Assembly: GCF_018860345.1 (NCBI RefSeq)
Contig: NZ_JAHKPJ010000018.1
Location: forward strand, 1 to 32,475
Source: Psychrosphaera sp. F3M07
GTDB taxonomy: Bacteria; Pseudomonadota; Gammaproteobacteria; Enterobacterales; Alteromonadaceae
DNA length: 32,475 bases
Reading direction: 5' to 3'
Part shown: positions 21,253 to 32,475 of the stretch, in pieces
Layout of the letters: each line of letters opens with the position of its first letter
Numbering within the stretch: position 1 is the first letter of the stretch
Position numbers and translations under genes: made by a program
Notes under the pieces: model-generated
What the model was told of the DNA's origin: nothing
Databases searched by the model: none
Seen by the model: only the letters and a program-made list of their open reading frames with translations

Positions 21253-22308
21253 GTGAATTTTATCAAATTAGCAGCTGTAACAGTTGTATTATCGTTTACC
21301 ACAGCTTGTGTATCATTTTTTGATGAGCAAAAAAACGAGCTAACAGACCGAAAGTCTGCCTTGGTATTACCTGAAGGATTTAGTGATCCTAAAAAGAGTA
21401 AAGAATATGATTTACCCGTTGTTGAGTCTTCAGCCGATACAGACGGCGAAATGACATCACCAACCACGGTATTAGTTATTTTTGACGGGAGTTGGTTAGA
21501 CGAGCAAGATACTCACCCTGCAAAAATTAAAGTAGAGAAACCAGAATTAGTAGAAAACTTTGCTAATTTCATCGACGAAGGTATTCAGTCTTTTGCAGAG
21601 CAAAATAATCTAACGTTAACAAAAAACGCTAACGGTTATCTCGTTGAGCAACTTATTGTTGAAGACGACGGTTATTGGTTTATAGAAGACTTAGTTGAAG
21701 TTGAACGTTTTTCTTACAACGTGGTTGTTAATTTAAACGAACAAGGTCGTAGCGGAGATGTAGCTATCGACATGTTAGATTACCAAAAAATAAGCCAAGA
21801 CTTAGCGCCAAACCACGCAGTACGTTATAGAAAAGAAGCCTTAGCCGCAGAAACGTTAAACAACTTAATGTTGGAACTGGACTATATCTACCGTGTTAAA
21901 TTGTTGAAAGAACGTGCGTCGTTAGATATCACCTTAGCGTTAGTTAAAAATGTTTCTGGTAATTACGTGATCAGATCACAACAAGACATTAAATATGTAT
22001 GGTCACAAGTAGACGATATCATTGAAGAGCTTGGTTTTGATATTGAAGAGTCAGACAAAGACTTGCATATATTTGATGTTGTTTATAACAAAGCCAGCGA
22101 CTCTATATGGCATCGTTTATTCTCATCAGATTACTCAGGTAAATTAGATATTGAGCCTGGTGAATATGAAGTGGCACTGACCACAAGTACCACAGGTGTG
22201 AATATCAGCTTCCGCTCTAAGAAAGGTACATTCTTAGACCAAGCAAGTATGGAACAACTATTCCAGTTAATGCTAGAAGTGGTAAAAGACGAAGAAGCTG
22301 AGCTTTAA
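21253..22308 (+). CDS. bamC: Outer membrane protein assembly factor BamC (NlpB)
   Basis: A lipoprotein subunit of the BAM complex that inserts beta-barrel proteins into the outer membrane. It starts with GTG at 21253, 16 bases after dapA, with CGGAG upstream. The N-terminus is a lipoprotein signal ending in FTTAC with Cys19 as the likely lipid-bearing residue; Thr rather than Leu at -3 is a weak lipobox. A disordered stretch (about 20-65) binds BamD in E. coli, followed by two helix-grip domains (about 70-190 and 225-345). The 351-residue length and the dapA-bamC linkage support the name. A strong terminator follows. Confidence 0.92.
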   Translation: MNFIKLAAVTVVLSFTTACVSFFDEQKNELTDRKSALVLPEGFSDPKKSKEYDLPVVESSADTDGEMTSPTTVLVIFDGSWLDEQDTHPAKIKVEKPELVENFANFIDEGIQSFAEQNNLTLTKNANGYLVEQLIVEDDGYWFIEDLVEVERFSYNVVVNLNEQGRSGDVAIDMLDYQKISQDLAPNHAVRYRKEALAAETLNNLMLELDYIYRVKLLKERASLDITLALVKNVSGNYVIRSQQDIKYVWSQVDDIIEELGFDIEESDKDLHIFDVVYNKASDSIWHRLFSSDYSGKLDIEPGEYEVALTTSTTGVNISFRSKKGTFLDQASMEQLFQLMLEVVKDEEAEL

Positions 22309-30642: not shown

Positions 30643-30669
30643 AAGATGTAAATTAAAAGTTTACATCTT
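30643..30669 (+). promoter_or_regulatory. Perfect inverted repeat before the lysR start, probable LysR operator
   Basis: AAGATGTAAA (30643-30652) and TTTACATCTT (30660-30669) are perfect complements with a 7-base TTAAAAG spacer. The repeat ends one base from the GGAGG ribosome site (30670-30674) and lies about 105 bases from the doxX start. Dyads of this kind between a LysR gene and a divergent operon are typical regulator sites; in RNA the same arms would form a hairpin. Confidence 0.6.
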
Positions 30670-30679
30670 GGAGGGGCCA

Positions 30680-31576
30680 ATGAAACTTGATCAACTTACT
30701 ATGTTTGTTAGCGTAGCAGAGCTAGGTACATTGAGCTTAGCTAGTGCAAAGTTACACAAAACACAACCGGCAATTAGCCAGAGCATACGACAGTTAGAGT
30801 CGTCTTTTAATCTATCTTTATTTAACCGAACAGGCTATCGTTTAGAGCTGACAGACGCCGGAAATGTATTGTATCAAAAGGCAATCCACCTTTTAGACGA
30901 AGCGACCGCATTACAGCAAGTGGCAGAAAATATAGCTCTAGGTAATGAGATCAGTATTACCATTGCAATCGAAGCTTCGTTTAATTTAAAAGGCATTTTG
31001 CCACTATTGGAAAATGTGCAGGCGCAGTTTCCAGATACTCAAATCATTATTAAACAAGAGTATCTAACTGGCGCTATTGACGCGATAAATAATCAAGATG
31101 CCACTTTGTGCATCAGTCCGCAGTCTCATATTATGCAAGTTGACTCTCAAACAGAAGGGCACTTTTTAACTAAAGGAACTTTATTAAATGTAGCCTCACC
31201 GAGATTAATTAGCAGACACCCTAATCTAACAACACGAAAAGAGTTGTTAAATGAATATCAAATCATTGTACAAGACTCAGGTACAGGTTCTAAAAATAAA
31301 GAGTGGGGTGTGCAAGAGGGTCAACGTAGGTGGTATGTAAATGACTTCTCGACTAAAAAAATGTTAATAGAAAGTGCAATGGGCTGGGGCAAACTGCCAG
31401 ATTATATTGCCGAGCAAAGTTTGAAAGATGGAAGACTGGTGTTATTAAAATTAACGGACGCCCGCAACGAAGTTCAGATGGAATATCACATAATGAAAAA
31501 TAAATCTAAAACGTTAGGGCCGGTAGCCCAGGCTGTTTGGCAGCAATTTAAACACTATACTTTTAATCGTTTTTAA
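30680..31576 (+). CDS. LysR-family transcriptional regulator
   Basis: A LysR-type regulator of 299 codons including the ATG at 30680, which follows GGAGG. An in-frame TTG at 30668 lies inside the inverted repeat and is unlikely. The N-terminal winged helix (1-60) reads MKLDQLTMFVSVAELGTLSL, then ASAKLHKTQPAISQSIRQLE with the recognition helix, and LFNRTGYRLELTDAG. The rest is the two-lobed effector domain. Divergent from doxX-dioxygenase, it probably activates or represses that pair and controls itself. The co-inducer is unknown. Confidence 0.93.
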   Translation: MKLDQLTMFVSVAELGTLSLASAKLHKTQPAISQSIRQLESSFNLSLFNRTGYRLELTDAGNVLYQKAIHLLDEATALQQVAENIALGNEISITIAIEASFNLKGILPLLENVQAQFPDTQIIIKQEYLTGAIDAINNQDATLCISPQSHIMQVDSQTEGHFLTKGTLLNVASPRLISRHPNLTTRKELLNEYQIIVQDSGTGSKNKEWGVQEGQRRWYVNDFSTKKMLIESAMGWGKLPDYIAEQSLKDGRLVLLKLTDARNEVQMEYHIMKNKSKTLGPVAQAVWQQFKHYTFNRF

Positions 31577-31826
31577 AACCTCTCTTTGCCATAAAATTCA
31601 AAGGTTATGAAATCATATAAGGACCTTTTGCTAAAACAAATAACAAGGCCACCCACCACAATAAAAAAATAACAAGATAAATAACAAGATAAATTACAAG
31701 GCCACCCACCTCAATTTGACTGACAAATAACAAGGCCACCCACTTCAATTTGACAGTTACTTAAACTGAAAATAACAAGGCCACCCACCTCAATTTGACA
31801 GTTAGTTAAACTGCACTAGACTTGCT

Positions 31827-31844
31827 TGTACCTATATTGGTACA
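31827..31844 (+). promoter_or_regulatory. Inverted repeat before the transposase fragment start
   Basis: TGTACC (31827-31832) and GGTACA (31839-31844) flank TATATT, 15 bases before the ATG at 31859. The equivalent sites before the next two starts have one mismatch (GATACA). It could be an operator, a promoter element or a transposase recognition structure. Confidence 0.35.
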
Positions 31845-31858
31845 GTGAGTATTTTGTT

Positions 31859-31918
31859 ATGCCTAGACCCAGAGAATTTCAAATTAGCTTATCGGATACG
31901 CCGTATGAAATCGACTGA
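31859..31918 (+). pseudogene. Transposase 5' fragment 1 (Y1/RAYT type)
   Basis: It begins MPRPREFQISLSDTPY, identical to the two later copies, then switches to EID and a TGA stop after 19 residues. The switch is after base 31906; 13-14 unrelated bases follow, and the next repeat copy starts at 31921. It is a broken 5' end of the gene starting at 32259. Confidence 0.88.
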
Positions 31919-32046
31919 GAAATAACAAGGCCACCCACTTCAATTTGACAGTTAGTGAAATAACAAGGCCACCCACCTAAATTTGACAGTTATTTAAACT
32001 GCACTAGACTCACTTGTACCTATATTGATACATTGAGTGTTTACTT

Positions 32047-32175
32047 ATGCCTAGACCCAGAGAATTTCAAATTAGCTTATCGGATACGCCGTATTATCAT
32101 TGTATCTCTCGTTGTGTTCGTAGGGCATTTTTATGTGGAGAAGATAAACAAACCCATCAATCTTATGAGAAATAA
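32047..32175 (+). pseudogene. Transposase 5' fragment 2 (Y1/RAYT type)
   Basis: 42 residues: the same MPRPREFQISLSDTPYYHC start, then ISRCVRRAFLCGEDKQ and QSYE as in the 32259 copy, but it runs straight into the next 29-nt repeat after GAG at 32169 and stops at the TAA inside that repeat. The break is exactly at the repeat boundary, with no filler. Confidence 0.9.
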
Positions 32176-32258
32176 CAAGGCCACCCACCTCAATTTGACA
32201 GTTACTTAAACTGCACTAGACTTGGTTGTACCTATATTGATACATTGAGTGTTTACTT

Positions 32259-32465
32259 ATGCCTAGACCCAGAGAATTTCAAATTAGCTTATCGGATACG
32301 CCGTATTATCATTGTATTTCAAGGTGTGTTCGTAGGGCATTTTTATGTGGAGAAGATAAACAAACCCATCAATCTTATGAGCACAGAAGACAATGGGTAG
32401 AAGATAAGCTGTTATTTCTCCCTCAAATATTTGCTATTGAAGTCTGGGCTGATGCAGTCATGAGT
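32259..32465 (+). CDS. Y1/RAYT-type transposase, 5' part, cut by contig end
   Basis: 69 residues are visible, from MPRPREFQIS to EVWADAVMS. The TPYYHCISRCVRRAFLCG block and the later HRRQWVEDKLLFL and FAIEVWADAVMS blocks match the N-terminus of REP-associated tyrosine transposases (Y1_Tnp, HUH superfamily) as I remember them. The HUH motif should follow AVMS (usually Asn-His-Tyr-His) but lies beyond the genomic sequence, so intactness cannot be judged. It is the longest and probably parental copy of the two upstream fragments. A 29-nt repeat copy leads it at 32171. Confidence 0.78.
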
Positions 32466-32475
32466 CTGTCTCTTA
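32466..32475. other. Probable Nextera adapter remnant at contig end
   Basis: The last ten bases read CTGTCTCTTA, the beginning of the Tn5 mosaic-end adapter as read through from an insert. The transposase reading frame loses its expected continuation exactly here (AVMS is normally followed by Asn-His-Tyr-His, here Leu-Ser-Leu). It is best treated as non-genomic sequence. Confidence 0.8.

Follow-up and report, generated by a model that had tools for sequence, protein, structure and literature searches.

How does a series of copies of one repeat arise in which every copy begins at nearly the same base and ends at a different one? The question was raised by the right end of a 32,475-nt stretch of DNA (the window; contig C10) from Psychrosphaera sp. 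F3M07, whose genome comprises 3.87 Mb in 29 contigs. Seven copies of a repeat lie there on one strand between 31642 and 32174, and several continue into the gene of a RAYT-like transposase. How RAYT/TIRYT-type enzymes move is not well understood.

The copies share the sequence AAATAACAAGGCCACCCAC(C/T)... and are listed in Table 1. When the window was searched for the repeat with at most 3 mismatches, 8 matches were found, whereas 100 shuffled sequences gave 0.42 on average; the match at 22087, with 3 mismatches, was unrelated. The search, together with alignment to a full copy on contig C26 of the same genome, confirmed the seven-copy array with varying right ends described in the original prediction, and two extra 10-nt copies absent from its list were found at 31667 and 31679. 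In the alignment, the inner ends of the seven copies fell at element positions 21, 26, 40, 132, 31, 207 and at least 291, in agreement with the predicted reach into the leader, codon 16, codon 41 and beyond codon 69. Among the 21 pairs of copies, matching ended after 4-13 nt on the outer side and extended for 0-202 nt on the inner side, and the copies were not identical to one another in sequence. The codon-41 fragment had been said to break where the next copy starts, and this was exact, its last base lying directly before AAAT of that copy. The claim of a shared left boundary held insofar as the outer edge was nearly constant. However, the 13 nt ahead of copy 5, GAAATCGACTGAG (31907-31919), were also found ahead of a copy on contig C2, which makes the outer edge less than perfectly constant.

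Table 1. Features at the right end of the window
Feature	Coordinates	Strand	Basis
ORF, 302 aa, LysR-type regulator (by eye), left neighbour of array	30668..31576	+	ORF list
LE copy 1, element positions to 21, then 8 non-element nt	31638..31662	+	alignment to full copy
Mini LE copy, 10 nt, AAATAACAAG	31667..31676	+	sequence
Mini LE copy, 10 nt, AAATAACAAG	31679..31688	+	sequence
LE copy 2, element positions to 26	31691..31720	+	alignment
LE copy 3, element positions to 40 (leader)	31725..31768	+	alignment
LE copy 4, to transposase codon 16 (ATG at 31859)	31770..31906	+	sequence, alignment
Outer flank, 13 nt, common with contig C2 copy	31907..31919	+	alignment
LE copy 5, element positions to 31	31920..31954	+	alignment
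LE copy 6, to codon 41 (ATG at 32047), adjoins copy 7	31958..32169	+	alignment
LE copy 7, open at contig end; transposase from 32259	32170..32465	+	alignment, ORF list
Adapter-like 10 nt	32466..32475	+	departs from element sequence; resembles start of Nextera mosaic end

The end beyond codon 69 had been read as one more truncation, but the contig ends there. Its final 10 bases (32466-32475, CTGTCTCTTA) stand where the full copy has another sequence and look like adapter; we take them to be the start of the Nextera mosaic end. A longer, 18-base adapter pattern had no match in the window, since the contig ends at this point. As these bases replace element sequence and are adapter-like, the right end of copy 7 was regarded as the contig end.

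An element of about 1.3 kb has this repeat as its left terminal inverted repeat (TIR). The full copy on C26 consists of a left end (LE), a 342-aa ORF and a right end (RE), the RE being an inverted repeat of the LE. In this copy the RE was tandemly duplicated, with mini copies of 10-12 nt, and short LE pieces stood ahead of the LE. The anchoring at left ends only that had been proposed was therefore abandoned, because right ends carry a mirror-image series. Several other contigs of the genome ended within the element.

From loci of three genomes 110 TIR matches were gathered, and the 100 that resembled the outer consensus, and were kept for that likeness, were used for conservation. Among these 100 Psychrosphaera TIRs, outer conservation faded at about position -9. 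The TIR core was GCCACCCACYT, also given as G(C/A)CACCCA. The TIRs were clear at element ends, but LE hairpins were weak, with z-scores of -2.3 to 0.5 in fold predictions for seven sequences. No match was found in an Rfam search of one array locus. A TGA had been noted just upstream of the last five window copies; it was present there but was not general, occurring at -14 to -10 in 16 of the 100 TIRs, with 8 at the best position, and TGA as a fixed target motif was not supported.

The transposase has 342 aa counted from the listed TTG and 332 aa from an ATG. Residues N72, H73 and H75, W169 and E170, and Y190-P195 were invariant in 22 relatives, corresponding to an NHxH HUH motif, WE and YVDLNP. 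The residue between the HUH histidines was variable among the 22 sequences, and a single Tyr motif was invariant. In one AlphaFold model (pLDDT 76) the predicted fold was that of an HUH Y1 enzyme, with E. coli RAYT 4er8 as the best match (E 7.6e-4, prob 1.00). The motifs and the fold upheld the earlier assignment to RAYT-like HUH transposases, while the scores for Pfam PF01797 (20.7 bits, cut-off 23) and NCBIfam NF047646 (41.7 bits, cut-off 80) were below threshold.

The transposase was present in four of eight Psychrosphaera genomes. On a 3.63-Mb contig of Psychrosphaera saromensis, six LE cores led up to one full copy that was followed by RE copies, and one LE piece measured 914 nt. In a second array of this species, three LE pieces ended at about codons 45, 37 and 28 without a full copy. 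The transposase pieces of P. saromensis comprised two full and three N-terminal ones and none that was C-terminal only. At a third site, an LE with 142 nt of an SseB-domain gene was followed by an LE with a WD40-like gene and then by an LE with the full SseB-domain gene. Because a gene that is not a transposase thus has an LE-anchored partial copy, the sequence downstream of the LE need not be transposase, and the arrangement of this site suggests that the transposase may act in trans.

Several other structures were observed in these genomes. A gene with a weak SIR2 match (L191:3381-4600, minus strand) lay between an attC-like palindrome, judged by eye, and an LE array that starts at the attC-like GCTAACAAG. 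A dispersed repeat of about 230 nt from the same locus (query positions 2491-2718) occurred many times in P. saromensis and Psychrosphaera sp. 2-982 and showed no apparent relation to the TIR. Pfam matches identified a GNAT gene (L050:1-920, G000 C16) and a methyltransferase gene (L051:1-890, G000 C3), each between right-end repeats in a cassette-like arrangement. MITE-like short LE-RE pairs without a gene were found at L015 (G000 C24:205331-205390) and L215 (G006 C2:289646-289709), and at L060 (G006 C10:102414) a 26-nt LE was fused directly to transposase codon 66.

When 84,980 species genomes were scanned, 417 relatives were obtained, and the analysis was restricted to the 80 best of these (79 loci). 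Partial copies were counted at 73 of the 79 loci, the 6 at contig edges being left out. LE pieces on the same strand lay 37 times to the left and 8 times to the right of the element, and RE pieces 8 times to the left and 22 times to the right (Fisher p=2.4e-6; counted by locus 19/5 vs 8/15, p=0.003). Because the loci are related, these and the later p values overstate independence. The original prediction had set truncation on both sides equally against its one-ended reading; both kinds of truncation exist, with each end type mostly on its own side. Pieces at most 60 nt from the element comprised 8 LE pieces on the left, 6 RE pieces on the right, 5 internal pieces and none of the reverse classes. 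The unexpected side was occupied by 16 of the 75 same-strand end pieces. Thirteen same-strand pieces had neither end (15 counting both strands), and three full second copies were found, none of them adjacent. On the opposite strand there were three LE, one RE and two internal pieces. The median piece length was 52 nt for LE (n=45) and 72 nt for RE (n=30). In a few arrays there was a hint that the copies are ordered by length with increasing distance from the full copy.

End duplications were found in Psychrosphaera, Colwellia, Marinomonas and complete Pseudoalteromonas chromids. In Marinomonas MED121 scaffolds a full copy was followed by RE pieces of 240, 90 and 45 nt, and an LE piece of 1078 nt adjoined another. 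Fragments were also listed across the whole genomes of Colwellia marinimaniae (48 matches) and Marinomonas MED121 (40 matches), but these lists served as examples only, since several Colwellia pieces end at contig ends. Two Colwellia LE duplications with different flanks (L063 and L072) had the same inner end base, beside the 3' arm of a predicted CACTCA/TGAGTG hairpin.

Tandem duplications with units of 18-1300 nt were surveyed at 87 loci, namely the 79 loci and 8 from a plasmid database. LE windows contained 19, RE windows 16 and the remaining sequence 46, which corresponds to 2.90, 1.33 and 0.065 per kb, or a density 20-45 times higher at the ends (p=7e-34). The end-duplication unit had a median of 38 nt and was full length in none of 35 cases, one of which (L075) belongs to another repeat, judged by its neighbours. 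Thirteen of the 35 were exact, and the microhomology of these was 0 nt in eight, 1 nt in two, and 2, 3 and 4 nt in one each. A motif used to reclassify the 46 located elsewhere, picked after viewing these duplications, was carried by 28 of the 46 compared to 5.8% of random segments.

Exact RE duplications were present in Pseudoalteromonas records titled complete, with units of 205 nt in NC201, 131 nt in Bsw20308 and 178 nt in HL-AS2. The NC201 unit was the same as its neighbour with 0 mismatches, whereas a related P. piscicida element was 82% identical over that stretch; this identity to the neighbour favours local copying. In two records named P. shioyasakiensis, 2 and 6 LE cores stood before the same gene, the six being a three-core array doubled. 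The outer edge of the duplications compared lay 8-21 nt outside the core, and no tetranucleotide common to the inner ends was found by eye. In CF6-2 the element was absent between the same genes, with flanks too diverged to give the exact insertion point.

As controls, 30 loci with other Y1 transposases were analyzed, including 15 IS200-like and 9 TIRYT-like loci. All 30 together had 6 duplications near the gene and 5 far from it (0.34 and 0.06 per kb), and the 87 study loci had 0.83 per kb near the gene in the same 300-nt windows. Duplications near the ends were found at none of the 15 IS200-like loci compared to 36 of the 87 study loci (Fisher p=0.0009, with the split of the controls made after seeing the data). 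The controls overall therefore show the effect, and the IS200-like ones are free of it. Three of the 9 TIRYT-like controls (L288-L290), whose ends carry GGGGTC, did have end duplications, and the process may therefore be common to TIR-bounded Y1 elements generally. Mini-copy arrays upstream of the Y1 gene were seen at L289, with 11 GGGGTC cores in 500 nt, and at L290, with 3.

The partial copies thus have a constant outer edge, a variable inner edge, abutting junctions, mirror symmetry at the two ends, local identity in the recent, exact cases and little microhomology. We consider it moderately probable that local, TIR-anchored re-copying by the Y1 (HUH) transposase built the array as stacked, partial tandem duplications of the LE. 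The transposase would nick one strand a few nt outside the TIR and keep hold of the 5' end, and the free 3' end would be extended inward across the TIR for a short, variable distance. Joining of the held 5' end to the new 3' end would then leave one added partial copy. With the TIRs in inverted orientation, an identical reaction on the opposite strand would account for the mirror series at the RE. A staggered second nick with fill-in would be an alternative route to the same product. We infer this order of nicking, extension and rejoining from HUH chemistry and from Helitron models, as outlined in the sections of PMC5876387 consulted. An outer edge that varies by several nt fits poorly with a precise nick, and a simple form of the mechanism is also at odds with this variation, with the pieces on the counter side and with the weak hairpins. 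More tentatively, it is possible that the Y1 transposase makes partial tandem copies of its own ends independently of microhomology, also in trans, and so seeds solo TIRs that bracket genes (LE-gene-LE, RE-gene-RE) as cassette-like units.

Two origins had been offered in the original prediction, and one-ended copying that stops early was the one supported; repeated arrival was not, since exact duplications copy their own neighbour, as in NC201. A related explanation is one-ended insertion, by which pieces from the LE to a variable point are copied from elsewhere and placed beside an existing LE where the target sequence lies, as in IS91/IS801. Some transfer from one site to another is suggested by the 13-nt flank that window copy 5 has in common with contig C2, and solo end pieces and LE-cargo units exist. 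We nevertheless think it unlikely, in view of the match of exact duplications to their own neighbour and of inner ends without a common tetranucleotide (by eye), unlike the IS801 pieces in the portion of PMC3189936 available. Full-length tandem copies shortened later by deletions starting at the TIR would leave the same anatomy, and adjacent RE|LE junctions exist (G000 C26:632138/632152). However, with no full-length unit among the 35, a median of 38 nt and no adjacent copy among the three full second copies of the 73 loci, such a history appears distinctly unlikely.

Nested arrival, slippage and assembly artefact fit worse than local re-copying. Replication slippage at short repeats would involve no transposase; slippage often yields tandem duplications, and polymerase might stall at TIRs. 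It is very unlikely given that 10 of the 13 exact cases have 0-1 nt of microhomology and that the duplications are strongly focused on element ends, with none near the 15 IS200-like genes. Insertion of each copy inside the previous one would likewise leave each type of end on its own side, but matching right-hand remainders are needed, and the lack of C-terminal-only pieces in P. saromensis, together with RE-only duplications that contain no inserted copy, makes it highly improbable. That the array is a short-read assembly artefact could be suspected from the window copy that ends with adapter-like bases at the contig end and from the several contigs ending inside the element. The same anatomy was found in the 3.63-Mb contig, in Marinomonas MED121 scaffolds and in records titled complete, and the window copies differ in sequence, so an artefact is extremely improbable.

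Compared to known systems, the transposase fits TnpA_Y1 subclass 2.3 by its motifs and length as described by Quentin et al. 2018 (PMC6006769), in whose consulted sections the subclass has NHxH, WE and YVDLNP, occurs in Alteromonadales in several copies per genome and has a median of 325 aa compared to 332-342 aa here. According to the same sections the subclass has no identifiable REP-like flanking structures, whereas clear TIRs with weak hairpins, MITE-like pairs and end-anchored duplications were found here. In RAYT/REPIN systems flanking REPs carry a GTAG-type tag, and none was seen by eye in the element ends. The TIRYT/TIRtron type, in the part of its description available (PMC3733652), shares TIR families and a RAYT-like gene between inverted repeats, as in the C26 copy, and TIR 'dimers or clusters' are mentioned there. 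Part of its TIRs have GGGGWSAS in place of the G(C/A)CACCCA core, and a series with constant outer and variable inner edges was not found in that part of the account. One-ended transposition of IS91/IS801 likewise involves an HUH enzyme, one end kept and the other variable, but its pieces, as described in the available portion of PMC3189936, insert elsewhere and end at set tetranucleotides, while those described here are tandem, local, present at both ends and without an inner motif seen. Moreover, the IS91 family has a Y2 enzyme, in contrast to the single Tyr motif here. For the Helitron Helraiser, the consulted part of PMC5876387 likewise describes a nick at one end and leading-strand synthesis that restores the donor, with full circles and full tandem arrays as products instead of short partial tandem copies. 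IS200/IS605 elements (class 1) share the Y1 HUH fold and differ in that no tandem duplication was seen near the ends of the 15 IS200-like loci. No description of such arrays was found in the literature on RAYT/TIRYT elements or one-ended transposition, judged mainly from titles and abstract openings.

We regard the element with its end series as a variant of the TIRYT/TIRtron type, with an enzymology that is proposed here. If a nick is followed by local re-copying of the ends, cleavage and rejoining would be readable from genomes and directly testable. TIR clusters, MITE-like pairs and TIR-bracketed genes would then all come from one reaction, and the long-tailed subclass 2.3 would gain defined ends.
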